The position numbers and the translations under genes are program-made. Of a stretch of 64,000 bases of DNA, positions 41,981-64,000 are shown piece by piece (the first letter of the stretch is position 1; each line of letters starts with the position of its first letter). Source of the stretch: Caldicellulosiruptor owensensis OL (GTDB taxonomy: Bacteria; Bacillota; Thermoanaerobacteria; Caldicellulosiruptorales; Caldicellulosiruptoraceae). The stretch covers positions 2,090,501 through 2,154,500 of the forward strand of contig NC_014657.1 of NCBI RefSeq assembly GCF_000166335.1, in the 5' to 3' direction. Under the pieces are notes generated by a model that saw only the letters and a program-made list of their open reading frames with translations, did not search any database and was not told where the DNA came from.

Positions 41981-42023
41981 TATTTTTGCACTCCTTTTAA
42001 TCAAATTTTTAATTTTGCAATTT

Positions 42024-43901: not shown

Positions 43902-43906
43902 CCAGA

Positions 43907-48567: not shown

Positions 48568-48594
48568 CTCCTTATAAAGAAATGCTATAATAAT

Positions 48595-48637
48595 TGCTGA
48601 GGAACTTTCGCTAAACTGTTTCGAAAGTTCCTCAGCA
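48595..48637 (-). terminator. 16-bp perfect hairpin upstream of tnsA
   Basis: Perfect arms TGCTGAGGAACTTTCG and CGAAAGTTCCTCAGCA with an 11-base loop, between the small gene at 48652 and tnsA. U content after the stem is poor in both directions. It may partly insulate tnsABCD from the upstream genes. Confidence 0.5.
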
Positions 48638-48651
48638 GAAAAGCCTAAAAT

Positions 48652-49164: not shown

Positions 49165-49200
49165 ACACATCATCCTTTCTTTTTTTGTTTTAATTAAAAT

Positions 49201-49449
49201 TCAAACTAAAGAATAACATTCCCTATATTCCTTATTGTTGTTATTTATATAAACACTAATTTCAGTTCCAATATCTAAACTAATATTTCCATCCCTATCT
49301 ACTATTGCAAGTTCGATAATTTCGGGAGTGGCATTACATTCAATTTCTTGCAATTCCTTTCCATTGCCTCCGCTCAAAAGGCTTTTTTTCCTTCCTTCTT
49401 CATTGAAAAGATACCTGATTCTTGCTTTTTTGTTTAATTCTGTTGTCAC
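49201..49449 (-). CDS. Small hypothetical protein
   Basis: About 82 residues, beta-rich C-terminus (PEIIELAIVDRDGNISLDIG, EISVYINNNNKEYREC). GTG 49449 lies ten bases after AAAGGGG; TTG 49458 is an alternative. In line with the XRE regulator upstream and the 170-residue gene downstream. No family recognised. Confidence 0.6.
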   Translation of the reverse strand: MTTELNKKARIRYLFNEEGRKKSLLSGGNGKELQEIECNATPEIIELAIVDRDGNISLDIGTEISVYINNNNKEYRECYSLV

Positions 49450-49492
49450 ATATATCAACCCCTTTCAATTTATTTCTAAAAGTTATTCGAGG

Positions 49493-49720
49493 TTACAATC
49501 CTGCATTTATAATAAAATCTTCTATATCCTTGCCGAGGGCCGCAGCAATTTTCCCAACTGTTTGCGGCCTTGGGATTACCTTATTATGTTCTATTCTTAT
49601 CAATGTTTTAGGACTCAAATTCGCTTCTTCTGCCAGCTGTGCTATACTTTTACCCTGTCTGGCACGCTCCAAGCGAATTTTGTTAAAATCGTATCTATAT
49701 GATTCTTGAGTTCTTTCCAT
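49493..49720 (-). CDS. XRE-family DNA-binding protein
   Basis: 75 residues, one Cro/C1-type helix-turn-helix: RLERARQGKSIAQLAEEANLSPKTLIRIEHNKVIP, then RPQTVGKIAAALG. ATG 49720 follows GGAGGTGATGAG. Divergent from a second XRE regulator across a 150-base region with a palindrome. This resembles a phage-type or plasmid-type switch and may control the tns-side genes. Confidence 0.85.
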   Translation of the reverse strand: MERTQESYRYDFNKIRLERARQGKSIAQLAEEANLSPKTLIRIEHNKVIPRPQTVGKIAAALGKDIEDFIINAGL

Positions 49721-49769
49721 CTCATCACCTCCCGTATTTATACCTTTGGTATATTTTTATTATATTTTA

Positions 49770-49786
49770 GACATTAGTATAATGTC
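49770..49786. promoter_or_regulatory. Palindromic operator between the divergent XRE genes
   Basis: GACATTA-GTA-TAATGTC has perfect 7-base arms, in the intergenic region between the two divergent regulators. A candidate repressor site. A TATAAT at 49847-49852 may serve the rightward gene. Confidence 0.6.
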
Positions 49787-49871
49787 AACTATTACAACAA
49801 AATTTTTTATACTTTTTTTATCGCAGATTTAATGATATACTGATAGTATAATTAAAGGGCAGGTGCTGAGA

Positions 49872-50405
49872 ATGTTTGGCGAAAGATTAAGAATGTTAAG
49901 AAACGAAAAAGGTTTCACCATGCAACAAATGGCAGAAATGCTAGGCATTACAATAGGTTCTTGGGCAAAATACGAGCGTAATGAGGCAGAACCATCTTTT
50001 GATAAGCTTGTAAAAATCGCCGATATCTTCAATGTAAGCGTTGACTTTCTGCTTGGCCGAACAAATGTTAGAAACGATAAGCTAGGAAATAATGAAACAA
50101 ACATAAAAAATTATATCGTTGATATTGAAAAAATTATAATAGAAAACCCTTCAGCTCTTTATTGCTTCCAAACTAACTTCGAAACTGTTCTGGAAAATTT
50201 TTCTAAAGAAATTATCTCAGAAAATCAACTTCAACCTTTACTCGAAGCTTTAAATGATCTCGTAATATATTTCAACGACTTAACAAGATTAAAATCAGAG
50301 AACAAGAAAATAAATAAAGAAATCTTAACTTACCATGAAAAGGAAAAAATCTCTATGTTGCAGCTTATGAATAAAATTTTTATGTTGTTGTTTCAACCTG
50401 ATTAA
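49872..50405 (+). CDS. XRE-family regulator (SinR/phage-repressor-like)
   Basis: About 177 residues. Helix-turn-helix at residues 5-60: RLRMLRNEKGFTMQQMAEMLGITIGSWAKYERNEAEPSFDKLVKIADIFNVSVDFLLGR (landmark blocks). A helical C-terminal region probably dimerises. ATG 49872 has AGGTG six bases upstream and yields MFGERLRMLR, a standard start for the family. Reads away from the tns block toward the recombinase. Confidence 0.88.
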   Translation: MFGERLRMLRNEKGFTMQQMAEMLGITIGSWAKYERNEAEPSFDKLVKIADIFNVSVDFLLGRTNVRNDKLGNNETNIKNYIVDIEKIIIENPSALYCFQTNFETVLENFSKEIISENQLQPLLEALNDLVIYFNDLTRLKSENKKINKEILTYHEKEKISMLQLMNKIFMLLFQPD

Positions 50406-50418
50406 GTATTAAAAAATA

Positions 50419-50538
50419 TTATGTAGCAAGATTTTTATTTCTTGTTTCTGTTTTCAAAAACGAAAATATCAAAAAATTCGTTTTTAAAATCGTAAAACTC
50501 GCTACATAACGATATCTTATGAAGCCATATTATGTAGC
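50419..50538. repeat. Three TTATGTAGC repeats before the recombinase gene
   Basis: TTATGTAGC occurs at 50419-50427 and 50530-50538, and inverted at 50501-50509. The first two form an extended inverted repeat (TTATGTAGC-AG-TTTTA type arms). Placement just upstream of a tyrosine recombinase suggests recombinase or regulator binding sites. Confidence 0.55.
50449..50492. repeat. 14-bp palindrome family, copies 1 and 2
   Basis: TGTTTTCAAAAACG (50449-50462) and CGTTTTTAAAATCG (50479-50492) belong to a family with consensus CG-N-TTTTAAAA-N-CG. Further copies lie up to 55.2 kb. Confidence 0.65.
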
Positions 50539-50570
50539 CAATCCAATTTACAGAACAGGAGGTAATTGTT

Positions 50571-51446
50571 GTGGATTGGTTGAAAAAGTTTGAAGAAGAC
50601 TTAAAACAAACTGGGAAGAGCCAAAATACAGTGGCAAGTTACTGCGCCGACATAAATGAATTTTTGCAATGGTTTGAGGAGACATATGCAAACAAATTCG
50701 ACGGTAGAATTCTTGAGCAAGACGCTCGCGAATACCGCAATTACTTGCTAAATGTGGTAAAGCAAAAGCCGTCCTCAATCAACAGGAAAATGGCTTCTTT
50801 AAAAAACTTCAACCAGTTTCTTATACAAGTCGGCACAGGAACAGAAGTAAACATTTGTGGTATTTCTGTTGCCGACATTCACGACAGAGAAATCAAAACT
50901 ATTAGCCGAAAAGAACTTAACAGGCTTAAGCGGGCAGTATACGCAAGCGGAAATAAGCGAGATATAGCTCTGATCGAACTTCTGATAAACACAGGAGTAA
51001 GAGTTTCCGAACTCGTTTCTTTAACCGTACAAGATATACATTTAACAGAAAGAAATGGCAGTCAAAACTACTCATATATCGCTGTGCGCAACGGTAAAGG
51101 CAATAAGTATCGAGAAATACCTTTAAACTCCCAAGTCAAAAGGGCTTTGGAAGAATACCTCTCCACAAGATCATCATCAAGTGATAAAATCTTCATTAGC
51201 CAGCGAGGTCCGTTGAGAAGAGAATCGGTTGATAAAATCATAAAAAAATATTGTCGCCTAGCTGGCATTGAAGAAATTTCCGCACATGTTCTCCGTCATA
51301 CATTCTGCACCCGTCTTGTTGCTGAAAATGTTCCCTTACCCATCATTTCAAAACTGGCTGGCCACTTAAGTGTTCAAACCACCATGGACTTCTATGTTCG
51401 AGTCAGCCGAGCTGATAAGGCCGCAGCAGTGGAAAAATTAACCTAA
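50571..51446 (+). CDS. Tyrosine recombinase (XerC/D-like integrase)
   Basis: 291 residues. N-terminal SAM-like core-binding domain (residues 1-90, TGKSQNTVASYCADINEFLQWF). Catalytic residues: Arg in LLINTGVRVSELVSL, Lys in a beta-hairpin near VRNGKGNKYREIPL, H-x2-R in HVLRHTFCTRL, His in KLAGHLSVQTT and Tyr in MDFYVRVS. Cuts and rejoins DNA at specific sites, for integration or plasmid dimer resolution. GTG 50571 has AGGAGG eight bases upstream. Confidence 0.93.
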   Translation: MDWLKKFEEDLKQTGKSQNTVASYCADINEFLQWFEETYANKFDGRILEQDAREYRNYLLNVVKQKPSSINRKMASLKNFNQFLIQVGTGTEVNICGISVADIHDREIKTISRKELNRLKRAVYASGNKRDIALIELLINTGVRVSELVSLTVQDIHLTERNGSQNYSYIAVRNGKGNKYREIPLNSQVKRALEEYLSTRSSSSDKIFISQRGPLRRESVDKIIKKYCRLAGIEEISAHVLRHTFCTRLVAENVPLPIISKLAGHLSVQTTMDFYVRVSRADKAAAVEKLT

Positions 51447-51461
51447 TGTAAACAAAAATAA

Positions 51462-51500
51462 CCGCAGGACAGTTTAAAACCTGCGGCTTTCGTTTTTGAA
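51462..51500 (+). terminator. Terminator of the recombinase gene
   Basis: CCGCAGG and CCTGCGG pair perfectly, followed by CTTTCGTTTTTG. The tail also contains a degenerate member of the palindrome family (51491-51504). Confidence 0.8.
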
Positions 51501-51524
51501 AAAGCTTTTCAGATGCAAAAAATT

Positions 51525-51686
51525 TTACTTGCCTACAAGAACCTCGTAAACTGCCTCATCTATATAACCATGTTCATACAGAGTCTCAGCCACTCTGAGG
51601 CCAAATTCCGCCACATCATGTTCGTAATGTGCGATACAAATTATCTGCTCCAAGGCATCTTCAGCATTGTATTTTTCTTCTTCCAA
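51525..51686 (-). CDS. Small acidic protein, 53 residues
   Basis: A minus-strand frame from TTG 51686 to TAA 51525: EEEKYNAEDALEQIICIAHY, EHDVAEFGLRVAETLYEHGY and IDEAVYEVLVGK. GC and codon use match the neighbouring accessory genes, and a ribosome-like CAGGGGTGG lies 10 bases upstream. Amphipathic helices predominate; possibly a small regulator or antitoxin. Convergent with the recombinase. Confidence 0.6.
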   Translation of the reverse strand: MEEEKYNAEDALEQIICIAHYEHDVAEFGLRVAETLYEHGYIDEAVYEVLVGK

Positions 51687-51796
51687 TTTAAATACACCAC
51701 CCCTGATTAAAATATGCTAAATTTATATGGATACATTATAGCGCGCAAAGCAAATGTATAAAAGCACTTCCTATCCCAAAATCTTTCAGGCATCTA

Positions 51797-52242
51797 CGAT
51801 TTTAAAATCGTTAAAATCGCTACTCGTTTTTAAAAACGAAGAAGGAGCAAAAAATTGCTCCCTTAAAACATGTAAATTTAAAGAAAAAGAAGGAGGATAT
51901 CAAAAACCTGCTCATCTTGAAAAATCCCATTTCGTTTTCAAAAACATATTAAGCAAATATCTTATTAAAAATCAAGATTTTTATACTGCAACCTCTTTGC
52001 TTTGTAACTTTTTTTAAATTTTATTACAAACTTACTCTAATATTTCCCCTCTGTGGAAGTTTTTGAAACTAACCGCATAAAGCTTAATTTGTTTTTAAAA
52101 TCGTATTCCCTATTCTAATTCCCGTAAATATACTATCAAAACACATATATAAAATTTTCAAAACGGAAACAAGAAATTGTAGTATTGTAGTTTTGTAGTT
52201 TTGTAGTAATTTTTTATCCTTATTTCGGCGTTTTTAAAATAG
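51797..52242. repeat. Palindrome cluster in non-coding DNA
   Basis: Members: CGATTTTAAAATCG 51797-51810, CGTTTTTAAAAACG 51825-51838, CGTTTTCAAAAACA 51933-51946, TGTTTTTAAAATCG 52090-52103, CGTTTTTAAAATAG 52229-52242. Two are perfect palindromes. The surrounding 51.7-52.4 kb shows no convincing gene. Confidence 0.7.
52178..52209. repeat. Four tandem 8-bp repeats (TGTAGTNN)
   Basis: TGTAGTAT, TGTAGTTT, TGTAGTTT, TGTAGTAA head to tail with no spacer, inside the palindrome-rich non-coding region. Iteron-like. Confidence 0.65.
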
Positions 52243-52437
52243 TGTGCCTCATATTGCTTATTATAAAAACATATCGAGAAAGCATAAAGACAAAGAAATC
52301 CTCTGTCCGCAGTTAATTTTCGCCTCTGTATGCGTTTTTGCCCTCAAAATGCTTCCATCCACAAATATTCAATTTCATAAAACTTAACTTTTTACCCCTC
52401 TCATCTTCACTCTTTTTTCCTGTTTCAACACAAAACG

Positions 52438-52462
52438 AAAAGCCCTGCAAGGACAGGGCTTT
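52438..52462 (-). terminator. Terminator of the gene at 52474
   Basis: AAAGCCCTG and CAGGGCTTT pair; the minus-strand exit is TTTTCGTTTT. It lies directly after the stop codon. Confidence 0.8.
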
Positions 52463-52473
52463 GGTGTCTGTTT

Positions 52474-52689
52474 CTAGATCAAAAAAGCTTCTGCAAGGCG
52501 CGTAGAAAGTGTAAAGATTTGTGCAGCAAATGGGAAATAATACCGTTTGCGCCAGACGAGTTTTTTGCCTGCGCCTTCCGGAGCAGCTAGAATAATCTCA
52601 GCGCTCCAAAAGCTCCAGCGAACTACATAAAACCAGAACGCACCTTTTTTCGGCGAGAATACAAACTTTTCATGCACTATTTTATACAT
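52474..52689 (-). CDS. Small aromatic-rich hypothetical protein
   Basis: 71 residues, rich in Trp, Phe and Lys (FVFSPKKGAFWFYVVRWSFWS, GKKLVWRKRYYFPFAAQIF). AGGAGG lies nine bases before ATG 52689 and a terminator follows, so expression is likely. No recognised family. Confidence 0.65.
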   Translation of the reverse strand: MYKIVHEKFVFSPKKGAFWFYVVRWSFWSAEIILAAPEGAGKKLVWRKRYYFPFAAQIFTLSTRLAEAFLI

Positions 52690-52780
52690 GAAACCCGCCT
52701 CCTGTCGGTATCTTCATGATCGCATCATATCACATTTTTTGCTGCTTGACAAGAATAGTAAAAAAATTTTTCAATAAAAC

Positions 52781-52810
52781 TTGACAAACCGAAGTGTCCT
52801 TTTCTATGAT
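52781..52810 (+). promoter_or_regulatory. Promoter TTGACA/TATGAT of the gene at 52846
   Basis: TTGACA (52781-52786) and TATGAT (52805-52810) are 18 bases apart. A second TTGACA begins at 52746 just upstream. Confidence 0.65.
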
Positions 52811-52845
52811 ACAGACGGATAAAAAAAATAAGGATGGTGTTGCCT

Positions 52846-53169
52846 ATGACGCTGAAGCGCAATAAACACTTTTGGACAATTGTCAGTCCGGCAGTTTGGC
52901 AAAAACTCTGCGAAATTGCAGAGAGAGAATCTCTACCGGTAACAAAGGTAGTGCTCCGGATTTTGTTTGCGGAATTTGATTATACGGGGGAAGAGATTTT
53001 GACTGATTATAGTTTCTCCTCTCGTACCGGGCACAAGATAATTGCGCGTGTAACCGAAAATGAACGCAAGAAACTCGAAGAGCTGGCAGAAAAACACGGC
53101 GTTACTGTTTGCCAGTTAACACGAAATGTTTTATATACTCATCTCATTGCGAAATCGAGTAAAATTTGA
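52846..53169 (+). CDS. Small putative ribbon-helix-helix-like DNA-binding protein
   Basis: 107 residues in two similar halves, each a strand followed by two helices: FWTIVSPAVWQKLCEIAERES-LPVTKVV and IARVTENERKKLEELAEKHG-VTVCQLTRNVL. The second half resembles a CopG/Arc ribbon-helix-helix unit. RHH proteins bind short palindromes and control plasmid copy number or toxin operons, so it is a candidate reader of the nearby 14-bp palindromes (inference). ATG 52846 has AAGGATGG upstream; the ATG at 52834 overlaps that site. Confidence 0.6.
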   Translation: MTLKRNKHFWTIVSPAVWQKLCEIAERESLPVTKVVLRILFAEFDYTGEEILTDYSFSSRTGHKIIARVTENERKKLEELAEKHGVTVCQLTRNVLYTHLIAKSSKI

Positions 53170-53289
53170 CTTTGTTCCCGCACTCTAATACGCTATATAT
53201 AAGTTTCTTTAAAAAAGTTGCCTAAAATACTTGATAATATAAAAATCCTTTTCTCACATCTATATAACAAAAAAGAGTGGGAGGATATA

Positions 53290-53508
53290 ATGGCACAAGT
53301 AACAGATAACAAAAATCTGAACCGTGATCCGAAGATCAAGAGACTGAGGTGAAAGGCAGTAGAACCGGCTGACCGACACGGACTGACCGAAGAGCAATGA
53401 GAAAAATTGCAGCAGGATATCTTGATATATGCGGCGCTTCTAAGTTGTGACGAAGTACGGGAAGAGTTGGAGCAACAGGTATGTGAAGAATTATGTGGGA
53501 CGGCGTGA
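53290..53508 (+). pseudogene. Small gene with two in-frame TGA codons
   Basis: From ATG 53290 (ribosome site GGGAGG five bases upstream) a protein-like frame of 72 codons runs to TGA 53506-53508, interrupted by TGA at 53350-53352 and 53398-53400. Both TGA codons sit where Trp would fit: KRLR-x-KAVEPADRHGLTEEQ-x-EKLQQDILIYAALL. Neighbouring genes use TGG for Trp and TGA as stop, so a double TGG-to-TGA mutation is the simplest reading. Recoding cannot be excluded. Confidence 0.55.
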
Positions 53509-53540
53509 TATAGCCACACCAGCCACGATGGGGATACATA

Positions 53541-53557
53541 CCGCTTCAAAGAAGCGG
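53541..53557 (+). promoter_or_regulatory. Leader hairpin upstream of the gene at 53587
   Basis: CCGCTTC-AAA-GAAGCGG, preceded by GATACATA and followed by an A-rich stretch and AAAAGGAG. A near-identical arrangement precedes the gene at 54251. Confidence 0.6.
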
Positions 53558-53586
53558 AAATACAAAAAAAGAAAAGGAGTGTGCTG

Positions 53587-54096
53587 ATGACAAAAAAAAG
53601 AATAAAAAGAAAAATAAGCAGACAAGAGGCAATTGAGGCACTGCGTACAAAGGTACGAGAAGCAGACGGGTCTCTCGTGACGCGCTGCATAACTGACGAA
53701 AGGTTATATAAAACAGTTATTTTTGAACATATGCTCACTCCAGTTAGCTTATACGATGAAGGACTCGTAGAGACAGATGACATTATCTCTACTTTTATCT
53801 CATCCTATGTGATTCACGACATGCTCGAAGAACTTTTTGAATTAGCTGATCTAAAAAAATATATAAGTCGTTTCATGGAAGAAACTGGAGAGAGTGGAGA
53901 GATGGGAACAAACAAACTGGAAGAAGTGCTCAATAGATTTTATAACGAGATATACGACGAACTAAAAAAGCATCAAGATAAAGTTGTAAAAATATTTTTC
54001 AGAATGTATCCAGGTCAAAAATGGGAAAACATCCCAACCGAAAAGCTGCAGGCTATACATGGATACATTATTCGAGGTTGTAAGATTATTCCGTAA
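53587..54096 (+). CDS. Hypothetical protein of the accessory element
   Basis: About 169 residues. A very basic start (TKKRIKRKISRQEAIEALRTKVREADG) is followed by helical acidic regions (ISSYVIHDMLEELFELADL, LEEVLNRFYNEIYDELKKHQ) and a Cys near the end. The basic start could bind nucleic acid. ATG 53587 is seven bases after AAGGAG. Unknown family. A GC-rich hairpin (CCCGCC-AGC-GGGCGGG, near 54107) follows its stop. Confidence 0.65.
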   Translation: MTKKRIKRKISRQEAIEALRTKVREADGSLVTRCITDERLYKTVIFEHMLTPVSLYDEGLVETDDIISTFISSYVIHDMLEELFELADLKKYISRFMEETGESGEMGTNKLEEVLNRFYNEIYDELKKHQDKVVKIFFRMYPGQKWENIPTEKLQAIHGYIIRGCKIIP

Positions 54097-54194
54097 TCGG
54101 CTTCCCGCCAGCGGGCGGGGAATACATAAAAAAAGAACGAGGATTTTTCCCTGTTCCGAAAGATTGCTTCTCCTAATTTCACCTGCATACATAC

Positions 54195-54212
54195 CGTCTC
54201 CACAGAGACGGA
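54195..54212 (+). promoter_or_regulatory. Leader hairpin upstream of the gene at 54251
   Basis: CCGTCTC-CACA-GAGACGG, preceded by CATACATA and followed by an A-rich stretch and GAAAAGGAG. Same layout as 53541-53557 with different stem sequence but equal pairing. Confidence 0.6.
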
Positions 54213-54250
54213 ACAAAAACGAAAAGGAGTGATGCACACTGAAGATTATA

Positions 54251-55123
54251 TTGCAGACTTACAATGAATACAACTCCGTAATGCAAAAAATGGAAGAAGG
54301 AACGAGGATGAGTTGGGAGGATGTTGTAAACGAAGCTGTGCGAATCGCTCTGGAAAATGCAGACTGGACGGAACTAAAACCGTTCCGATACAAAGCTTCA
54401 AAATATGATGAAGGTTATTTTTGGAAACTCGTATATGTGAAGCTTGAATACGGAACATGGAAAAAAGCAAGAGAATATACAAAAAACGGCATAGAGCTGG
54501 ATGATGTTATAAATTTTGCACTACTGTTTGTTAAAAAATTTATGACAGCACGGATGAAAAAAGATATTCTTGATAAGAAATGGACGATAAAACGGGCGGC
54601 AATGGTAATCGAAAAAATCGCAGGTGGGGAATGTATAAGCGTAGAATCGGATCGTGTGGAATTCGAGGTTTGCCCGATCTGCAAGTCTGATGGTTTTATG
54701 GTCTTTTTTAACGATAATGACATCCTTCCATTTGGCTATTGTTTAAAATGCAGGTTCCACAACATCTGGGAAATTCTGTGCGAAACAGGAACGGGAAGTT
54801 TTATCGATGTAGTCCATAAAGCATGGGAAATTCTTGAAGAAAAAGACAGCAAAGAACAAGCAACAACAGTTGCAAAACAGGAATACAAACAAAAAACGAT
54901 ACAACAAAAGCCAAAACACAAGAGAATCACAGAACTCGAAGAGGAACGCAGAAGAATTATCGAAGAGAACTTTGAGGGGCCCTACAAGCCGCCGGAGGAA
55001 GAATACAGAGAAGCACAAGAAATCATTCGGTACCTTTCAAAAATATCTGCTGAAAAAGAGCGAAAGCCACCAACAAAACACTCATTTAAAAGCAACTCAA
55101 TGGAACCAACTTTGAAAAAATGA
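54251..55123 (+). CDS. Hypothetical zinc-ribbon protein
   Basis: About 290 residues. A central zinc-ribbon (FEVCPICKSDGFMVFFNDND...GYCLKCRFHN, about residues 138-172) with two CxxC pairs as in primase and replication factors, preceded by a helical domain (MTARMKKDILDKKWTIKRAAMVIEKI). A charged coiled-coil tail carries ELEEERRRIIEENFEGPYKPPEEEY. The start is unclear: AAAAGGAG points to ATG 54232, which opens only an 11-codon frame, so a short leader peptide, a CTG/TTG start (54239/54251) or an indel is possible. Confidence 0.65.
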   Translation: MQTYNEYNSVMQKMEEGTRMSWEDVVNEAVRIALENADWTELKPFRYKASKYDEGYFWKLVYVKLEYGTWKKAREYTKNGIELDDVINFALLFVKKFMTARMKKDILDKKWTIKRAAMVIEKIAGGECISVESDRVEFEVCPICKSDGFMVFFNDNDILPFGYCLKCRFHNIWEILCETGTGSFIDVVHKAWEILEEKDSKEQATTVAKQEYKQKTIQQKPKHKRITELEEERRRIIEENFEGPYKPPEEEYREAQEIIRYLSKISAEKERKPPTKHSFKSNSMEPTLKK

Positions 55124-55168
55124 ACCACCGACCAACCGCAAAGCCTTTCGGCATACTCTGCAATTGCT

Positions 55169-55200
55169 CGATTTTAAAATCGTATTTGATTTTAAAAACA
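55169..55200. repeat. 14-bp palindrome family, distal copies
   Basis: CGATTTTAAAATCG (55169-55182, identical to the copy at 51797) and TGATTTTAAAAACA (55187-55200), between two convergent genes. Confidence 0.65.
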
Positions 55201-55233
55201 AAAAAGGGGCTGTCCAACGGATAGCCCTTTTTT
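55199..55233. terminator. Bidirectional terminator between convergent genes
   Basis: AAAAAGGG-GCTGTCC pairs with GGATAGC-CCTTTTTT across AAC; A and T runs flank both sides. It can stop both the zinc-ribbon gene and the primase transcript. Confidence 0.8.
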
Positions 55234-55403
55234 GATTCGCTTAACTCTGCAATATATGCCTGGATACAAAAACTTTAAAAACTCATTTTTATCCTGTCCC
55301 ATCAAAAAATATAACAGACACATATGAAAAAAGAAGCTTTCATCCCACTCTTCGGGGCAAGCCGTTTCGCCCCCCACCTCCCTCATTGAGAAGTAAAGAA
55401 ATA

Positions 55404-55468
55404 AAGAGAAGTTATTTTTTTATTTATTTTTCATTCCGCTTTCCCATATTAGCCGATTCCAAAATTAC
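55404..55468. repeat. About 62-bp direct repeat, copy A
   Basis: Conserved GAGAAGTTAT, TTTTTCATTCCGCT and AGCCGATTCCAAAATT blocks. Copies at 57486-57549 and 57977-58040. Copy A overlaps the primase stop codon. Confidence 0.7.
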
Positions 55469-56568
55469 CTTATTTGTTGAGTGAGATAAAAATCTATTGC
55501 AGGCATCCTATTTTCATAAATCCTCCTAAATTCCTTTTCCGGAACCTCATCAGGGTCCTGATACCCATCGAGCTGAATAACACTGATTTCATCAAGATTA
55601 AAACCCGCTTTTGAAAACTGATTAATAATCCTGAGCACGCCGTTTTTCCCTGAATTTTCATCATCGCCTTTGCAGCTGTCATTATCAAGGCACAGAATTA
55701 TCTCGGCAGGTGAAAGTTCATACAGCATTTTCAACTGATATTTAGAAATTGATGTGCCCAAAAGTGCCACTGCAGTATATCCCATGCGGTGAAGTGCTAT
55801 TGCATCAAAAACACCTTCAACAAGAATAATTTTGTTCAAATCATAGTCTGCGCCTTGTGCTTCATATAACCCGTAAAGACATTCACTTTTTGCCCCTATA
55901 ACCTTATATTTACCAAAATACTCGGCCTTTTCTTCTGATAATGTTCGCCTTACAACTGCCTTCAGTTTTCCCTCTGTCGAATAAACAGGAAAAATAATAT
56001 CTTTTTCTTCAGGATCAAAGCCGAGATAAAAATTCTCGATGTCCCACTCCGTAAGTTTGCGCTCTTCGGTAAGATACCGAAGAGGATATTTGCTCTCTAA
56101 TAATGCATTATGCCATTCGCGAATTTGCGATTCCTGATATACGACATATTCTCCTTCTTCTTCAACCGTTCTAAATTCCCTTATGAATGAAAGAGTACTG
56201 TCTTTAAACGATAATAATCCTTTTTTATTTTTATAACTATACTTCATGATATTTCTGCACAACAAATCTATTTCCAAATTTGCCAAGCTTGCCATATAGC
56301 GAACTGTTCTTTCTCTGTCGTCTGTCTTCATTATCCGCATAACAAGATCAACCAGATTATAGCCATTCTTTTCGCACCCGTTGCTAAAACAGCAGAAAAC
56401 TCTCTTTTTTACATTTATTGAAAGGTTATAGCCGTTCGCATTTCTGTGGAAAGGGCAAACAATTCTAACTTCATCGCCATACCTTTTGTAGCTGACATCT
56501 AAATTCTCAAGCAGTTCAACTACATTTGTATTTCTTATCACCGTACGCTCAATCCTTTTTGAAATCAT
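55465..56568 (-). CDS. DNA primase (CHC2 zinc finger and Toprim)
   Basis: About 367 residues. CHC2-type zinc finger IVCPFHRNANG...RVFCCFSNGCEKNG (about residues 35-75) and Toprim domain with IILVEGVFDAIALHRMG (catalytic Glu) and IILCLDNDSCKGDDENSG (acidic pair, about 280-300). Shorter than bacterial DnaG, without a clear DnaB-binding end, as in phage and plasmid primases. ATG 56568 overlaps the stop of the upstream gene (ATGA), so the two are translationally coupled. Confidence 0.85.
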   Translation of the reverse strand: MISKRIERTVIRNTNVVELLENLDVSYKRYGDEVRIVCPFHRNANGYNLSINVKKRVFCCFSNGCEKNGYNLVDLVMRIMKTDDRERTVRYMASLANLEIDLLCRNIMKYSYKNKKGLLSFKDSTLSFIREFRTVEEEGEYVVYQESQIREWHNALLESKYPLRYLTEERKLTEWDIENFYLGFDPEEKDIIFPVYSTEGKLKAVVRRTLSEEKAEYFGKYKVIGAKSECLYGLYEAQGADYDLNKIILVEGVFDAIALHRMGYTAVALLGTSISKYQLKMLYELSPAEIILCLDNDSCKGDDENSGKNGVLRIINQFSKAGFNLDEISVIQLDGYQDPDEVPEKEFRRIYENRMPAIDFYLTQQIR

Positions 56569-57362
56569 GATACCGCCTCCGTTCCAATAACATTCTCGAT
56601 GTCTTCGTCTGTAATCATTAATTCTTTCGTGCAAATGCGCCGCAGCAGAAAACGAATCCCTTTCTCTTTTTCAGGGCCTTTTGCCGCACTGCAGTAAGTA
56701 TAAATAAACCCCAGCTGATGGAGAGTTTCTATATGTTTCTTTACAGTGTCCCATGTGCGCACGCATAAATACTCTTTCAGTTCCTCTTTTGTCACAGTAA
56801 CCATATAGCCGTTCTTTGCTTTTGCAAGCAGAAATATATACAGCATCTTTGCATTTATGTTTAGGCTTTTACAAAAAACAAGATTCAGCGGAATATAAGT
56901 TAAATATTCGGAATCATTTGGTTTTTTAAATTTATACAAGTTATTCATGTAGCGCTGATCGTCATTGGTTCTGCGCCTGCTTCGCACTGCGAGTATTGTT
57001 CCTCTTTCTGCTAATTTGTCAATTGCTTCAATTATAGTTGTATGAGAATGTCCTGATGAATCCTCCAATAATTCAATCGAAGGATATGCCTCGCAGTTTG
57101 CGTTGGAGTATGACTTAATCATTATATAGACCAATTTTTCCCATAAACTCATGTCCTTTGCATAAATAATCGAATCTTCAACATAAACGGCAGTATAACC
57201 GCCTGCTTTGTTCATGTTCATCAGTTCTTTCTCCGTAAAATTCAGCAAACCGTAATGAATCGTATAGGCCAATAAATTTTTTTGATTCGTTTCGTAAAAA
57301 ATTTTATATCCGTCCGATACCTGCTCAATTTTTATAACTTTATTCTTTTTGCTCTTACCCAT
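56565..57362 (-). CDS. Helix-turn-helix replication-initiation-type protein
   Basis: About 265 residues. Two winged-helix regions: MSLWEKLVYIMIKSYSNANCEAYPSIELLEDSSGHSHTTIIEAIDKLAERG and INAKMLYIFLLAKAK...VTKEELKEYLCVRTWDTVKKHIETLHQLG (landmarks). Pattern of plasmid RepA_N/phage replication initiators and conjugative-element HTH proteins. ATG 57362 has AAAGGAGGAGG upstream. Coupled to the primase gene. A 12-bp palindrome AGTACTAGTACT (57429-57440) lies just upstream and may be its operator. Confidence 0.7.
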   Translation of the reverse strand: MGKSKKNKVIKIEQVSDGYKIFYETNQKNLLAYTIHYGLLNFTEKELMNMNKAGGYTAVYVEDSIIYAKDMSLWEKLVYIMIKSYSNANCEAYPSIELLEDSSGHSHTTIIEAIDKLAERGTILAVRSRRRTNDDQRYMNNLYKFKKPNDSEYLTYIPLNLVFCKSLNINAKMLYIFLLAKAKNGYMVTVTKEELKEYLCVRTWDTVKKHIETLHQLGFIYTYCSAAKGPEKEKGIRFLLRRICTKELMITDEDIENVIGTEAVS

Positions 57363-57428
57363 CGGATCCTCCTCCTTTCTTAAAACTTGCTTGCGCGGGC
57401 GCGGCGGCAAACCGACACTCCCTCTTTG

Positions 57429-57440
57429 AGTACTAGTACT
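57429..57440. promoter_or_regulatory. 12-bp palindrome upstream of the replication gene
   Basis: AGTACTAGTACT, perfect, beside a TATAAG -10-like box on the minus strand. Possible autoregulatory site. Confidence 0.45.
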
Positions 57441-57485
57441 TATAAAGGTTTTATCTTAAAAAGTATCTATAGATGCATATATAGG

Positions 57486-57549
57486 CGTGAAGTTATCTTT
57501 TTATTTGTTTTTCATTCCGCTCTATCGCAAGAGCCGATTCCAAAATTTC
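57486..57549. repeat. About 62-bp direct repeat, copy B
   Basis: Best-conserved match to copy A (about 80 percent by eye), upstream of the replication operon. Confidence 0.7.
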
Positions 57550-57698
57550 GTCATTAAGCCTGCCCGCAAAGGCAAAATTCACTTAAGGGATTTTCCTTAT
57601 CATTTTAGAACATAACAGGTACAAAACTCAAATTTTACTCCCCCTGCCGTTAATTTTTTTCAGAGTCACTTGCTTCAAAAAAGAAACAGGAAATAAAA

Positions 57699-57724
57699 AA
57701 CAGCTGTCGGGGCTAACAGCTGTT
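57699..57724 (-). terminator. Terminator-like hairpin without an assigned gene
   Basis: AACAGCTG and CAGCTGTT pair; the minus-strand exit is a run of six T followed by ATTTCC. The nearest upstream minus-strand gene already has its own terminator at 58158-58182, so this one may end a short RNA from 57.73-58.15 kb. Confidence 0.7.
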
Positions 57725-57976
57725 CGGATTCTGCTGCAAAATTCGAAGTTTCTGCCCAAATAACCTATGGGTAAGAAGCGAGATTAAAAACGATTACAGA
57801 AATAGCTTTTTTGCCTTAAAATCTGAAAAGCACAAAATGGCATCAAAACATTCTTAGCTATACTTCTTCGGAAAAAATTTCTTTTGTCAAGTCGGCTTGG
57901 CGACTCGTGCCCAACTCCTTCTCTGAGAAAAAATATTGCCATAAATTATATGCATGATCAGTTAACATATTTTTAT

Positions 57977-58040
57977 TAGAGAAGTTATCTATTAAGTTGT
58001 TTTTCTTTCCTCCATTTCGTTGGATCCGATTCCAAAATTT
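57977..58040. repeat. About 62-bp direct repeat, copy C
   Basis: More diverged copy: GAGAAGTTATCT and CCGATTCCAAAATTT ends conserved, centre changed. It lies in an 830-base stretch (57411-58246) with no convincing gene. Confidence 0.6.
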
Positions 58041-58157
58041 TTGTTTAAAATCTTAATGCGTTGGTAAGATCATTTTGAAGATCTCACATAGTATAAATTC
58101 CTGTTCCTCATTTTCATTTATTCAGTTTTAGAAAATAACTAAAAGGAAAATAAAAAA

Positions 58158-58182
58158 AGCAACTACCATTGCTGATAGTTGC
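58158..58182 (-). terminator. Terminator of the PD-(D/E)XK gene
   Basis: GCAACTA and TAGTTGC pair; the minus-strand exit is TTTTTTTATTTTCC. It lies about 65 bases after the stop codon. Confidence 0.8.
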
Positions 58183-58246
58183 ATAAATACTTAATTCTTA
58201 TTAATGTTTTACATTATTCTTAAAAATACAGTTTTTAAGGACAACT

Positions 58247-59659
58247 TCACGGCAAAAGAGTTCTAAGTTTGCCTGTTTCACTGTATCCGAGAGTCTTTCC
58301 TCTAAGATAGCGCAATAAAATTCTTTTATCAACTGAATTTCCATTATCAATTTTCTCAATAAGAGAATACAATTGATTCCAAGTTAGGTGATAATAAAAT
58401 ATTCTTGAACCAAGATGAACATTATCACTTACGCGTCTTACCAAGTCATTATCTAAACCGTCTTGAGTTATTGAAACTAAAACTAAAGTCGTTTTCCCAA
58501 ACTGTTCCCGCAAAGCCTCTCCTAACAAGAAAAACCGCATAAGTTCATAACCGATTCCATCACTGCTTGCTACATGTTCAATATTATTTTTGAAAATACC
58601 TTTTTTATCACTGTAATAATCGGGAATTTTAGAAGGAGCTGATGTCACAGATGGCGAATCCAACTTTGCCTCGACCAATACTACCACATTTTTAAATACT
58701 GCTATTATGTCTGGCTCAGATCCATGCGAACAATTTTCACCAATCAAACTCCTTGCTTTCTGTAGGTCCTCCCATTCTGCCATTTTTTCTGTGTCAACAG
58801 ACCAATATACAACTTTTTCTATTTGCCCCCATGGGAATAGAGTATCTTTTTTGCCTATGTTGTCCTCAAAAATTTTGTTCAATAACCCCTCTCGCTCCAA
58901 GAAGCGAAATACATTCCAAACCAAAGAATCCTCATCTCTTTCTCGACCCATTCTGCTCCATGTGCGCTTTCCTGCCTTTGATAATTTAAGTGCTGTTTCT
59001 TTATCTTCTGGCCATAGCAACGATGTTGTAGGTTCCTCATATTCAAAGGTTGAGGGAGATATATAAATTCTGTGTTTCGGACATAAGTAACTTGATAGCT
59101 TGTCCTTACTGCTGTTAAGATTTAATCCGTCAGCAGTCATTCGCGGAGCAACAAAGTCACATCCGATAACGGGACAAGGAACATTTTCTTCTGTTATTAT
59201 CCTTTCTTGTCTAAGTGTCCATCTGTCGAGCATAAGCGGACTCTTGCTTTCAGCTCGCCTTTCAAATAAGGCATAGTAAGCAATCGTGCCAGGGCCTGCT
59301 TCGTCTTTCATAAATGCATCTATTGGAATCAGAGATATAAGACTGAACCCGATAGAATTTTCATGTTCTACTATTCTGCTAAGCTCTTCTTCAATTGAGC
59401 TCCTTTTAGATTGATAGCCTATACGCCATGCGTGAAATAACGATCCTCCTGAAGCACGATTTAGCCAAAAAATGCAATCATCCGTATAAACACCATAATT
59501 TCGAATATATATTGCACCACCACCTAATTTCACCTGAGCAGCGTGACCCCCGTAGCAATAACCGTCAGATGCAGCATTAGTAAGAAAATGTGCAGTTTTC
59601 TCGGGTAAGTCCATTGAAATATTCAACTTTATTAACTTTTGTTTCATTATATCACTCAT
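58247..59659 (-). CDS. PD-(D/E)XK nuclease-like protein with zinc-binding region
   Basis: 470 residues. A central Cys/His cluster (CPVIGCDF...YLCPKH, about 167-200) and, at about 312-332, SEPDIIAVFKNVVVLVEAKLD: the Asp and Glu-x-Lys of a PD-(D/E)XK nuclease. The long N-terminal region (GHAAQVKLGGGAIYIRNYG, FWLNRASGGSLFHAW) is unrecognised. 35 bases separate it from the HTH gene upstream, forming an operon. Neighbours are OLD and HsdR genes, so a defence or DNA-processing role is likely but inferred. Confidence 0.7.
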   Translation of the reverse strand: MSDIMKQKLIKLNISMDLPEKTAHFLTNAASDGYCYGGHAAQVKLGGGAIYIRNYGVYTDDCIFWLNRASGGSLFHAWRIGYQSKRSSIEEELSRIVEHENSIGFSLISLIPIDAFMKDEAGPGTIAYYALFERRAESKSPLMLDRWTLRQERIITEENVPCPVIGCDFVAPRMTADGLNLNSSKDKLSSYLCPKHRIYISPSTFEYEEPTTSLLWPEDKETALKLSKAGKRTWSRMGRERDEDSLVWNVFRFLEREGLLNKIFEDNIGKKDTLFPWGQIEKVVYWSVDTEKMAEWEDLQKARSLIGENCSHGSEPDIIAVFKNVVVLVEAKLDSPSVTSAPSKIPDYYSDKKGIFKNNIEHVASSDGIGYELMRFFLLGEALREQFGKTTLVLVSITQDGLDNDLVRRVSDNVHLGSRIFYYHLTWNQLYSLIEKIDNGNSVDKRILLRYLRGKTLGYSETGKLRTLLP

Positions 59660-59694
59660 TTAAACTTTTTGCCCCTTCCATTAAAATTATTATT

Positions 59695-60555
59695 CTACCC
59701 CTTTAAAACATAACCTTTTAAATTCTTATCAAAAACAACCTTGCCTTCTTCTATTTCATTAATTATTCTGAGGTCTCTATAAAACATTCTTTTTGAAATT
59801 GTATCAGGATATAGCATTTCGTCTAACCTTTCCTTTGTTAAAACCTCGCCTTTCATTAAACATTTATACATTAATAACACTCGCCTCAATCGTATAGAAC
59901 TTTCGCAGGCTCTTCTCCCAACCCCTTCATTATCTTTAATTACCGATAAAATAGTTAATCTCAGTTTTTCTGGATCACTAAAAATATTCTCCTTAAAATA
60001 TATATTCTGTATGCTGTAATCTGGCACTTCAGAAGAGTTTATAATGTATGTAGTTGGATTCTTTAAATCTTTCAATTCATCTTCAAACTCGGCTAACTCT
60101 GGCGGCAAGGGCTCTTCACATTCTTTCCAGAATTGAAACAGCTTGTATTTATCTTCATGATCAATAACTGCAAAATTGATAAATGCCAAAAAGTGTGGAA
60201 TTCCAAAAATGTCTTCAAGAACATCAGCAAAATATAGTTTTATTTTTGTTTCTTTTCCTTTTAATTTATCATAAACACTCAAGTTTTCTATACATTTGTT
60301 AAGAGTTATCAATTCCTGCTCATTTAGCCCATAAGCCAATATGGTAGAATAGTAAGAATAGTAAATATCATCTTCTGAACTGTCATATATTCTCATGTTA
60401 CCCCCATCCCTTCTCTTTAGCCTTTTAAAGTTATTATAATATTCATGTAATGAACAGGGGCTGTCATTCATCGCTTGAATCATTAAATTTCTAGAAATAA
60501 GGGGATAGGAAATTTCTTTTCCATAAATAGGTATTTTTGTTTTTTCCATTGACAA
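59695..60555 (-). CDS. HTH-domain protein paired with the nuclease
   Basis: 286 residues. The C-terminal part (about 220-285) reads RVLLMYKCLMKGEVLTKERLDEM and SKRMFYRDLRIINEIEEGKVVFDKNLKGYVL, the HTH_11-type winged helix found at the start of WYL regulators; here it is at the end and no WYL domain follows. The N-terminal 200 residues are helical and unrecognised. No strong ribosome site: TTG 60555 or ATG two codons in. A TTGACA promoter lies upstream. Confidence 0.65.
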   Translation of the reverse strand: MSMEKTKIPIYGKEISYPLISRNLMIQAMNDSPCSLHEYYNNFKRLKRRDGGNMRIYDSSEDDIYYSYYSTILAYGLNEQELITLNKCIENLSVYDKLKGKETKIKLYFADVLEDIFGIPHFLAFINFAVIDHEDKYKLFQFWKECEEPLPPELAEFEDELKDLKNPTTYIINSSEVPDYSIQNIYFKENIFSDPEKLRLTILSVIKDNEGVGRRACESSIRLRRVLLMYKCLMKGEVLTKERLDEMLYPDTISKRMFYRDLRIINEIEEGKVVFDKNLKGYVLKG

Positions 60556-60633
60556 GTATTGTAATGCGTTTCGAATATAAGATCCTTTCTATCCATGCAG
60601 CCAACTTGCTTTTTCTTGAACCATATTGCTCCA

Positions 60634-60663
60634 ATAATAATAATAATTGATTGATATTGTCAA
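60634..60663 (-). promoter_or_regulatory. Promoter of the HTH/nuclease operon (TTGACA, TATTAT)
   Basis: On the minus strand TTGACA (60658-60663) and TATTAT (60634-60639) are 18 bases apart, about 80 bases before the start codon. Confidence 0.6.
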
Positions 60664-60832
60664 ATATCATATTCTTTCTTTATTGTTTCTTTGCCAGATT
60701 GACTTTAAAAAAATTTATTTATTTTCCCCATCAATTTTATATGAATTTTCCCTTTTCAAAATCTTACATTGTGCTAATTCATAATGCGATATTTTATCTA
60801 CTGCAAGTTTTAGCTAAACCAATGGTTAATAC

Positions 60833-62809
60833 TCAAACACTAACACATCCTTGCCTACAACCATCTGATGTTTCAGAGATGTGAAAGATCCCATCAAGAA
60901 ATTCTTTTATTTCTACAACATTAAATATACTGGAAATTTTACATCCATTGTTCAATATAGAATTTATCTCAAAGATTTTTTCTAATGATAATTTATGGGT
61001 TTCGCTAACTAATCGGAAGTCTTTATTAAAAAAACTTTCAATATCCCCAGAGAGAATGCATATGCCGTTTATTCTTAATGTCCTTAAAATGGCTTCTAAT
61101 CTGTCAAACTTTTCCTCACCTCTAAAATCTTCTATTCTTTTTGCTGTATAAAACTTCTCTTCATAATTTTGCTTTATAATATTTCTAACTTTCGACACTA
61201 GCCCAAATATCTTCTTTCCCTCTTCTCCAAAACGACTAATAAAGAACCTTTCTCCTAAATTTTCGATACTCTCATGACACTTAGCACCTTTGTCTTTGTA
61301 CTTTCTAACTTTCTCTTCATCTTTATCCCTTAAAAAATAATCAAAATCAGCTACGATATAAGTGTCAATTCCTAATTTCAAAGTTAAGTCAACAAATTTA
61401 CTTATATTATCCTTGCCTCCAACACTTATAACCGATATGTTTTCTTCATTAAGTTTGTTGCCATACAGTTCCTCTGCGACCCATTTGATTATGTAGTTAT
61501 CATATCCCTCACAAACAATTACTTTATCTGCAAAAAACACCTCATTTTGATTGTTATCAACCAATACATCTTTAAACTTTTTCACATTTAATTGATGTAT
61601 AGCAGTTTTTCCTTCATTCTTTCTTGCAAGGATTATATTCATATTTGGTTCTATTGTTTTTAAAAATTCTGGACTATGTGTGGTAATTATAACCTGGTTT
61701 TTGCCGTCATTTAAAAACTCGTCCAACTTGTAATTAATAGTTCTGCAAGCATGAGGATGTAAATAAAGTTCTGGTTCTTCTAAACATAGTAAAGCAGATA
61801 ATTTTGTATTAACATAATTTATATAATAGCTAAATAAACCTATAATCGTAGCACTTTGAATGCCTGAACCTTTATCCGTAATTAATGATTTGTATCCATC
61901 GTCGATATATATGACCACATTTTTGTAAATATCTGGTTTTTCATCGGCACTAAATTGAAACAATATCTCAGTTCCAGGAAAAGCCGCATTAAAAGAACCG
62001 TTACTAATTTTTTGTTTTACATCACTAAATACTTCGTCAGCGATTTCTTTAACTCGTAAAAAAGCTTTCTTCAACTCATCATCTTTATTGTGGTTTTTAG
62101 TTAGATGCCGCAATAGTTTCCCATACCAGCTCCACTGGTTAATTCTTAACTGCACCATTGGATCTCTAAAAGAGGGTATTATCGCACTTTGAAGGAATTC
62201 ATTGCGAATTGGTGCTGAAAATGCCATCGTCCAATTTGAATTTTCATCTTCTCTATAAAAAAATCGCAAATCCTTCTTTACATCTCCATCTTCATTTCTA
62301 TATGCTTTCAAAACAAATGCAAATATATATTTATTTTCAAATTCCTCTATAACCTGGTCAATATTTTTCTTTGGATTTATATACTGTTTTTCTTCATATC
62401 TTAACTCATCAGGATTTATTAAAAATTCATTTTCAAAACAATTTTTTATAGCATCCTTATCTATCGATCGTGAATACTTATAAAACCCCGAGCACTTAAG
62501 CATCATATCATAAGGAATATCTTCTCCTTCATCTCGCCTCAATTCACAATAAATAAAAATATCATTAGTAACTACAATTTCCTCTTTCGTTTCATCCTTA
62601 ATTTTGTATGTGAAAAAATCCTTTTCTGTTATATTCTCATTTTTCACATATGCTGGATTACTTTCCCCTAAAACCAAATCTATTGCTTTAATAATATTGC
62701 TCTTACCACAATTGTTTTTCCCAACAATAATGTTTTTCCCCTTAGCAAAAGTTATATCGATATATTCAATGCTTCTAAAATTCTTAATAATTACCCTATG
62801 TAAATACAT
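60833..62809 (-). CDS. OLD-family ATP-dependent endonuclease
   Basis: About 658 residues. N-terminal SMC-like ATPase: YLHRVIIKNFRSIEYIDITF, Walker A VGKNNCGKSN, Walker B LCLEEPELYLHPHA (about 345) and VIITTHSPEFL. C-terminal Toprim nuclease: KVIVCEGYDNYIIKWVAE, then DTYIVADFDYFLRD with the acidic pair. OLD proteins degrade DNA and defend against phage; class 2 members pair with UvrD-like helicases (Gabija). No such helicase follows. ATG 62809 has GGAG upstream. 55 bases after hsdR, likely co-transcribed. Confidence 0.92.
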   Translation of the reverse strand: MYLHRVIIKNFRSIEYIDITFAKGKNIIVGKNNCGKSNIIKAIDLVLGESNPAYVKNENITEKDFFTYKIKDETKEEIVVTNDIFIYCELRRDEGEDIPYDMMLKCSGFYKYSRSIDKDAIKNCFENEFLINPDELRYEEKQYINPKKNIDQVIEEFENKYIFAFVLKAYRNEDGDVKKDLRFFYREDENSNWTMAFSAPIRNEFLQSAIIPSFRDPMVQLRINQWSWYGKLLRHLTKNHNKDDELKKAFLRVKEIADEVFSDVKQKISNGSFNAAFPGTEILFQFSADEKPDIYKNVVIYIDDGYKSLITDKGSGIQSATIIGLFSYYINYVNTKLSALLCLEEPELYLHPHACRTINYKLDEFLNDGKNQVIITTHSPEFLKTIEPNMNIILARKNEGKTAIHQLNVKKFKDVLVDNNQNEVFFADKVIVCEGYDNYIIKWVAEELYGNKLNEENISVISVGGKDNISKFVDLTLKLGIDTYIVADFDYFLRDKDEEKVRKYKDKGAKCHESIENLGERFFISRFGEEGKKIFGLVSKVRNIIKQNYEEKFYTAKRIEDFRGEEKFDRLEAILRTLRINGICILSGDIESFFNKDFRLVSETHKLSLEKIFEINSILNNGCKISSIFNVVEIKEFLDGIFHISETSDGCRQGCVSV

Positions 62810-62864
62810 TCTTCCCACTCCATCTTAAGACAGTCATATTTCACTAAAAACAAATACTTATCCA

Positions 62865-64000
62865 TTAAGCAGCATCTTCAAAGAGAGATACAGCCTGTTC
62901 AATGACCAATTTAACTACATTATCAAGCTTTTGTGGATCTTTGAAGCCCTTTCTTCTTAGTAATCTTTTTACCGTTGCCCTAATGGATGCCTTAATGTTT
63001 TCTTTTATAGTCCAATCTACCTGTCCCTCGGTTTTACTTTTTATAATTCGCACAAGCTCTCTTGCAATTTCCTTTGCCTCTTCGTCATTTAAAATAGCCT
63101 CTTCACCCTGACATACAATGTCGTAAAAAGCCATTTCTTCTTCCGTTAAGTTCATTTCTTTTGCCCGTTTGTCCATATTCTGCATTTCTTTTGCCAAATC
63201 AATAAGGTGTTTTATAACCTCAGCAGATGTAATAGCACGATTATGATACTTATTCAAAACTTTTTCTATCATTTCTTTAAAAGAAGCATACTTTACATGA
63301 TTCTTCCTGATCTTAGCCTTAATCTCATCATTGAGCAGTTTACGCAAAACCTCAATCTGCAAGTTTTTATTCTCATGCCCAATAAGTTTATTTAAAAATT
63401 CTTCACTCAGAATAGACAAGTCTGGTTTTTTAAGCCCCGCCGCATCGAATATGTCAATTGGTTTGTCGCTTGCAGCAACACCCTCGGAAATAATCTGCTT
63501 TATGGCACTGTCCAGCTCTTCGATTGATAACCCTTTAGGCGGCGTGTATTTGACAATATTGCTTCTTACTGCTTGGAAAAAGGCAACATCTGAACGAATA
63601 CGCATCGCTTCTTCTCGCGGTATTACAAGGGCAAAAGCCTTGCACAATGCCATGCACTGATCCAAAAAATTTTTCTTTGTGGTCTCATCCTTATTTATTA
63701 AGTCCATAGCCTGCTTTAAAAGACTTAATTTGTCCTCTGCACTTTTTTCTTCCCAACCCGAAAAATCAATGCCGTGGAAATACGAGCAAACAATATCATA
63801 CTTCTCCTGCATAATCCTTATTGCTTCGTCTATGGGTAAGGTAGCAGCCTCCTTGCCCGTGCTTCTTGTGTAGTTTGCCAGTGCCAGTTTTAAGTCATCA
63901 GCAATACCGATGTAATCTACAACCAATCCTGCAGGTTTGTCCTTAAAGACCCTGTTTACTCTGGCTATAGCCTGCATTAAGTTGTGCCCTCGCATTGGCT
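62865..64000 (-). CDS. hsdR: Type I restriction enzyme subunit HsdR, C-terminal part (runs off right edge)
   Basis: The frame is open at the right edge; at least 376 residues are seen. It opens with the last helicase motif (HNLMQAIARVNRVFKDKPAGLVVDYIGIADDLK), then a helical C-terminal DUF3387-type region that docks on the HsdM/HsdS methyltransferase. HsdR is the translocating and cutting subunit that degrades unmodified DNA. The partner hsdM/hsdS genes should lie to the right of the window. An OLD gene follows directly. Confidence 0.92.
   Translation of the reverse strand, partial: PMRGHNLMQAIARVNRVFKDKPAGLVVDYIGIADDLKLALANYTRSTGKEAATLPIDEAIRIMQEKYDIVCSYFHGIDFSGWEEKSAEDKLSLLKQAMDLINKDETTKKNFLDQCMALCKAFALVIPREEAMRIRSDVAFFQAVRSNIVKYTPPKGLSIEELDSAIKQIISEGVAASDKPIDIFDAAGLKKPDLSILSEEFLNKLIGHENKNLQIEVLRKLLNDEIKAKIRKNHVKYASFKEMIEKVLNKYHNRAITSAEVIKHLIDLAKEMQNMDKRAKEMNLTEEEMAFYDIVCQGEEAILNDEEAKEIARELVRIIKSKTEGQVDWTIKENIKASIRATVKRLLRRKGFKDPQKLDNVVKLVIEQAVSLFEDAA

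Follow-up and report, generated by a model that had tools for sequence, protein, structure and literature searches.

A putative regulator and a predicted nuclease carried with defense genes on a Tn7-like transposon of Caldicellulosiruptor owensensis

Two adjacent genes in the chromosome of Caldicellulosiruptor owensensis OL lie next to genes for an OLD-family nuclease and a type I restriction subunit, and the question raised by this locus is whether the two form a defense module of a new kind. The DNA analyzed, referred to as the window, is 64,000 nucleotides long (NC_014657.1, positions 2,090,501 to 2,154,500), and its features are collected in Table 1. The two genes are called B and A, in the order in which they are read. 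A sequence-only reading had described them as a candidate new two-gene defense module, in which a PD-(D/E)XK protein with a zinc-binding center is coupled to a helix-turn-helix protein, and had placed OLD and HsdR next door, where both are found.

Table 1. Positions of the gene pair, its putative signals and the surrounding transposon in the window
Feature	Position	Strand	Remarks
TnsD/TniQ target selector	42024..43910	-	
TnsC-type AAA protein (TniB)	43907..45568	-	
TnsB-type transposase (Mu-transpos_C)	45558..47747	-	
TnsA endonuclease	47707..48567	-	
Tn7-like transposon, part within window	40340..64000		left end TGTTGATTTAAA at 40340
Terminator-like hairpin and T run	58159..58182	-	directly 3' of A; consensus match only
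Gene A	58247..59659	-	ORF, 470 aa
A, N-terminal domain	residues 1-155		no assigned fold
A, zinc center	C162/C167/C193/H196		
A, predicted PD-(D/E)XK nuclease domain	residues about 232-445		C-terminal; D317, E330, K332
Gene B	59695..60396	-	most likely 233 aa; N-terminal domain about 1-140, predicted winged helix about 165-233
Promoter-like site TTGACA-18-TATTAT (11/12)	60634..60663	-	between OLD and B; consensus match only
OLD-family nuclease (AAA_15 and OLD TOPRIM)	60833..62818	-	neighboring defense gene
Type I restriction HsdR, 3' part	62865..64000	-	1033 aa, continues beyond window

Domain content and operon layout

A PD-(D/E)XK nuclease fold is supported for the C-terminus of A, which carries the features of the superfamily and makes A a predicted nuclease. 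The structure model of A was built from 4 sequences, has a pLDDT of 47 overall and is usable for residues 245-445. It is shallow, as are the other predicted structures, which cover the proteins of the window, of Fervidicella (L002) and of Thermovorax subterraneus (L003). Among solved structures, residues 232-445 of the model matched best the small subunit of R.BspD6I (Z 7.6) and Nt.BspD6I (Z 7.1), with further matches to VC1899/Can2, MspJI, EcoT38I, NucS, McrC, Shedu, and Card1. Z scores below 8 are middling, and most of the matches in this range for A are PD-(D/E)XK nucleases. An alignment of 5 full-length relatives of A (33-80% identity) shows D317 and K332 in every sequence and E330 in 4, with Asn in its place in the other (G059); the Cys3His zinc center, Cys162-x4-Cys167 and Cys193-x2-His196, is invariant. 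The assignment rests on the consistency of the structural matches, each middling in its Z score, together with the conserved D...ExK motif. These results and the Pfam matches bear out the earlier description of A.

The best sequence matches of the nuclease domain are REase-ARP (PF22558) and the PADLOC model PDC-M15A, both of them partial, and A differs from the two in its added N-terminal domain and zinc center. In Pfam, REase-ARP matched A at 9e-4 (19.4 bits, below the cut-off of 27) and one A homologue at 7.6e-7, and PDDEXK_13 matched one member of the A family. PDC-M15A matched weakly, at an E value of 3.2e-5 and over residues 226-332 only, and PADLOC found no other PDC-M15 component in B. 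PDB sequence searches with A returned nothing meaningful. Two structural candidates were discarded: RdrA, which gave the top Foldseek rows at a TM of about 0.1, and a ribosomal S6-like match to residues 71-137 of A, where pLDDT is below 50.

The reading frame of B extends to a TTG at 60555, which would give a protein of 286 aa, and the sequence-only reading had taken the operon to this point. This longer form was rejected because Thermovorax subterraneus, the nearest relative, has a TAG stop inside the matching upstream stretch, and because the ATG at 60396 is preceded by a ribosome-binding-like GGATGGGGGTA(A/G)C that is conserved between the two. B therefore most likely starts at 60396, and the frame from 60397 to 60555 is probably noncoding. 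Apart from this correction, what the sequence-only reading observed stands.

The C-terminal part of B is predicted to be a winged helix. In the model (pLDDT 70-93), the closest structures to this part by VIA-align over 64 residues are BrxR (Z 9.0, rmsd 1.6) and CapW (Z 8.1); the alignment spans a common winged-helix fold only and is weak by itself. Pfam HTH_11, which had been proposed for B together with the absence of a WYL domain, is below detection in B itself and reaches 6e-10 to 6e-11 in its relatives, and Pfam found no WYL domain in B or these relatives. For the N-terminal domain, which is about 140 aa long, Pfam, NCBIfam and the PDB sequences gave no match, and no Pfam STAS match was found in B or its relatives. 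The predicted structure of the domain is of low confidence and unreliable; strand-helix alternation seen by eye in the relatives suggests that it may be an alpha/beta sensor-like fold. A Pfam "Prophage_tail" match to B (0.034) was taken as chance.

Both genes are under purifying selection (dN/dS 0.15-0.24 for the two, 0.15-0.22 for A), and only 35 nt separate them. Since a promoter-like site precedes B and a terminator-like hairpin follows A, B-A is probably a short transcription unit of its own. Upstream of B lies a near-palindrome, GAATGACAGCCCCTGTTCATT, which is a candidate operator and is conserved in two related loci only.

A Tn7-like transposon and its cargo

The block HsdM-HsdS-HsdR-OLD-B-A is cargo of a complete-looking Tn7-like transposon, which the sequence-only reading had not noticed. 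Genes for TnsA, TnsB, TnsC, and TnsD/TniQ are present, and the insert of 31.7 kb starts with TGT at 40340 and ends with ACA at 72018. The latter position is in extended coordinates (locus L024), outside the window, 26 bp from the stop codon of glmS. A 5-bp target duplication, ATAAC, flanks the insert on both sides (left copy at 40335-40339), and the site is empty in a sister genome (G152, L093), whose sequence aligns continuously across it. HsdS and HsdM lie upstream of HsdR in the extended locus. The tns genes are at the end of the transposon distal to glmS.

In TnsABCD, insertion next to glmS and a cargo of restriction-modification (RM) and OLD genes, this element is like the Tn7-like transposons with defense cargo described in the text of Benler et al. 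(2021, PMC8649781). There, RM systems and then OLD are given as the commonest defense cargoes, and unknown defense systems are expected among the remaining cargo. No module like B-A was seen among the defense cargo named in the passages compared.

Thermovorax carries this block near glmS as well, and the stretches examined there hold no tns genes. The synonymous distance between the two is 0.04 for OLD, 0.23 for HsdR, 0.30 for B, and about 0.4 for A, and the step in identity falls between OLD and B. Judged from these distances, the island is a mosaic between Thermovorax and the window. B-A has thus had its own history, as would a separate module, although mosaicism alone is no proof of one. 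HsdR and OLD both show 98% protein identity (L003:1852-6985 against window 60833-64000) despite their five-fold synonymous difference.

Several other genes of the region were recorded. Inside the transposon, a Rep-like HTH_36 protein, a small CHC2/Toprim primase and a tyrosine recombinase (window 55465-57410 and 50571-51446) look as if they were a replicating or integrating element captured as cargo. Related small proteins of 111 and 113 aa lie on both sides of the cargo region (window 52834-53169 and L024:9284-9625), and both match one gene of locus L098 (30% and 91%). In one genus member, glmM is present twice at full length, the copies having the same identity (86%) and lying 243 kb apart (G408:C1:249208 and G408:C1:491924); the other members have one close copy each.

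Occurrence and partners of A and B

A search of 398 genomes of the phylum turned up A-like sequences in 7 genomes by sequence and in 9 by profile, the 2 extra genomes giving weak partial matches; Fervidicella adds one more. None was found in the other genus members searched. With so few carriers, A does not behave as one of the mostly unlinked housekeeping genes that would have spoken against a defense role. Neither A nor B has a relative in viral contigs or in phage and plasmid collections; one plasmid match to a B relative was only a DeoR-type helix and was set aside.

Conservation of the pair, which the sequence-only reading had proposed as a check, holds in part. B adjoins A in 3 of the 8 clear A loci (the window, Thermovorax (G226) and G001 (L017)), and these counts are small, the window and Thermovorax representing one lineage of the island. 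In G001 the order is again B then A, with A 45% and B about 20% identical, which makes the link older than the recent transfer. At the other 5 loci, B was not detected anywhere in the genome, with a profile that did find B-type domains in other genomes. Two of these genomes (Fervidicella and G002) have an intact A. The loci without B indicate that A does not depend on B as a repressor. As far as these genomes tell, A can stand alone and the pair is not obligate, and where B is linked the link is deep. A is broken in 3 of the 8 loci, by a frameshift in Thermovorax (which could also be a sequencing error), a truncation in G285 and fragmentation in G258.

Co-occurrence with defense genes, the other proposed check, was seen at 4 of the 8 A loci. 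Type I RM and OLD genes adjoin A in the window and in Thermovorax, and GmrSD genes in Fervidicella. In G258 (L021:4630-10212), the broken A lies directly behind a DruE-type helicase, and a type I RM operon follows behind A on the other strand. An HKD-SNF2 helicase is about 10 kb from A in G001, and L018 and L020 have ordinary neighbors, L020 being the locus of G059 with Asn in place of the catalytic Glu. The other stretches examined have no Tns genes near A. This context is suggestive, as a plain count rather than a statistic. Apart from the weak partial match to PDC-M15A, no PADLOC or NCBIfam model covers the B-A pair. The setting of the pair gives good support to a role in defense, but the idea of a strict two-gene system has to be given up, since 5 of the 8 A loci have no B, 3 of the 8 A genes are broken and relatives of B are paired with other nucleases.

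B-type proteins also stand ahead of other genes. A wide profile (A2) recovered mostly HTH proteins through the winged helix only, and it was replaced with a profile of the N-terminal domain alone. In G223 (L023), a B-type protein directly precedes a 433-aa nuclease-like protein with a D...ELK motif, which is found in a Butyrivibrio protein as well, and a gene for an MBL-fold protein follows. The same nuclease-like partner, apparently truncated, lies behind the B-type protein of G261 (L022). G225 (L062) has its B-type protein directly ahead of a protein of 233 aa with WDA...EAK, which an Azospirillum relative shares. Neither the 433-aa nor the 233-aa protein has a Pfam match, and both are read from their motifs as PD-(D/E)XK-like nucleases. 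An A-like match at G225:C6:10380 was discarded, since it was weak and its frame was unlike A; at this locus B is probably partnered by the next gene. Two side observations concern small genes and MBL genes. A B-type remnant in G070 (L064:9435-9557) lies beside a trio of small genes (YgiT-like, ImmA-like), and the same trio precedes the intact B-type copy of L022. MBL genes of similar kind occur near A in L017 and L019.

On the Butyrivibrio plasmid pCY186 (L100:2822-5906), an HTH-WYL-WCX protein takes the place of B ahead of the same nuclease-MBL pair. The three-gene unit there and in L023:6974-10221 is made of a regulator, which is a WYL protein on the plasmid and B-type in L023, the D...ELK nuclease-like protein and an RNase J-like MBL protein. 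In G272 (L065:8630-10607), the N-terminal domain of B exists on its own, as a protein of 104 aa encoded immediately after an HTH-WYL-WCX regulator, and G029 gave a match of the same kind. Comparison of pCY186 with L023 suggests that this slot can be filled by either a WYL controller or a B-type protein. In the simplest reading, B-type proteins act as controllers and can be exchanged with those of the WYL kind.

What the pair may do

We put at about even the chances that B-A is an effector module under regulation, directed against phages (or plasmids) and traveling as Tn7-like cargo, with B as controller and A as nuclease effector. In such a module, the winged helix of B would bind DNA near its own promoter and repress the B-A operon. 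The N-terminal domain of B would sense infection, DNA damage or a partner, and this would lift the repression. A would be the effector nuclease, and its N-terminal domain and zinc center may help choose the DNA (or RNA) to be cut. It might cut the DNA of the phage only or that of the host as well, as in abortive infection. This reading is drawn from the operon layout, the deep link between the genes, the BrxR/CapW match, the exchange of partners, the defense context, and the Tn7 carriage. Counted against it are the A loci without B, the Asn and ordinary neighbors of A in G059, and the N-terminal domains of A and B, which have no confident structure. B-A is a real unit of a probable regulator and a predicted nuclease, mobile, under selection and in a strong defense setting, and its parts are new while its logic is familiar.

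Known controllers of defense operons provide the closest comparisons. BrxR and CapW (PMC9122601, PMC9122588), WYL-type controllers of CBASS, BREX and further defense operons, resemble B in the position of the gene ahead of a defense effector and in having the nearest winged helix in fold, and a WYL protein takes the slot of B in the Butyrivibrio nuclease-MBL module. In contrast to them, B lacks both WYL and WCX, carries its winged helix at the C-terminus instead of the N-terminus, and has a new N-terminal domain in place of the sensor. CapS is a STAS-wHTH repressor that lies between an RM operon and an effector, and its repression is lifted once the kinase CapK has been switched on by DNA damage; in nearly 20% of loci, CapS and CapK are flanked by an RM operon on one side and an immune operon on the other (PMC13373217). 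This published case shows that the layout of a regulator between RM and effector exists, and WYL controllers act likewise in other systems. B is similar to CapS in its small size, in a possibly alpha/beta-like N-terminal domain followed by a wHTH, and in its place between RM operon and effector. It differs in that Pfam gave no match to STAS, the domain with a phosphorylatable Ser in CapK-CapS, and in that no GHKL kinase gene like capK adjoins it, as neither of its neighbors, OLD and A, matches such a kinase. Lacking WYL, a STAS match and an adjacent kinase gene, B belongs on present evidence to neither the WYL nor the CapS family. The locus also differs from Gabija, which pairs an OLD-type GajA with a UvrD-like GajB; here OLD is followed by B and A, and neither matches a helicase.

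On the exchange of partners, B makes more sense as a controller that can be swapped than as one of two halves of a new machine. More tentatively, B might found a new class of defense-operon controllers, in which a hitherto undescribed sensor domain, either joined with a wHTH or placed next to a WYL regulator, governs several unrelated PD-(D/E)XK modules, B-A being one new anti-phage system among them.

We consider it unlikely that A is a stand-alone restriction enzyme, either modification-dependent and type IV-like or guarded by the neighboring HsdM, with B tuning its dose once the element has entered a new cell, as C proteins do in type II systems. No dedicated methyltransferase adjoins A in any locus examined, intact solo copies exist and the relatives beside GmrSD, a type IV system, fit this explanation. 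However, it leaves unexplained why B has a conserved extra domain that is found with WYL regulators too, and it overlaps with the regulated effector module, differing in the trigger only. A type II RM system with a C protein is not what is seen here, as there is no methyltransferase beside A and B is a two-domain wHTH protein rather than a small Xre-type one.

Just as doubtful is an addiction unit resembling a toxin-antitoxin pair, by which the transposon would be retained, with A as a toxic nuclease and B as its repressor, its neutralizer or both. A regulator ahead of a toxic effector, carriage by a mobile element and the broken A genes would all suit such a unit. However, A is large, has separate recognition-like domains and, unlike an addiction toxin, persists without B in several genomes. 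Loss of A is also expected for a costly defense gene.

The chances are slimmer still that B and A are one enzyme, in which B is the DNA-recognition subunit that guides A, as in a two-subunit restriction enzyme. The genes are adjacent and co-directional, B has a winged helix and A a nuclease fold, and the order is kept in a distant relative, as this would require. The intact A copies without B speak against it, as do the pairing of B-type proteins with other nucleases and their replacement by a WYL regulator, which are more in line with a controller than with a subunit. Finally, that A has nothing to do with defense and works instead in DNA repair, in transposition or in regulating the element is very improbable: its place inside a Tn7-like transposon and the L020 copy, with ordinary neighbors and a changed catalytic residue, point that way, but A occurs without nearby Tns genes in the other stretches examined and half of its loci adjoin defense genes.

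The new controller domain of B is the most interesting part of this locus. If B is a controller of the proposed class, it would be a further dedicated kind beside WYL proteins, CapH/P and CapK/S, and it would govern at least three nuclease modules, none of them named in the libraries searched. The swap of B-type and WYL proteins before the same nuclease-MBL pair would allow a direct test of the signal that such controllers sense, and B-type regulators would offer a handle for finding further defense modules. The Tn7 carriage shows a route by which B-A moves among thermophiles.
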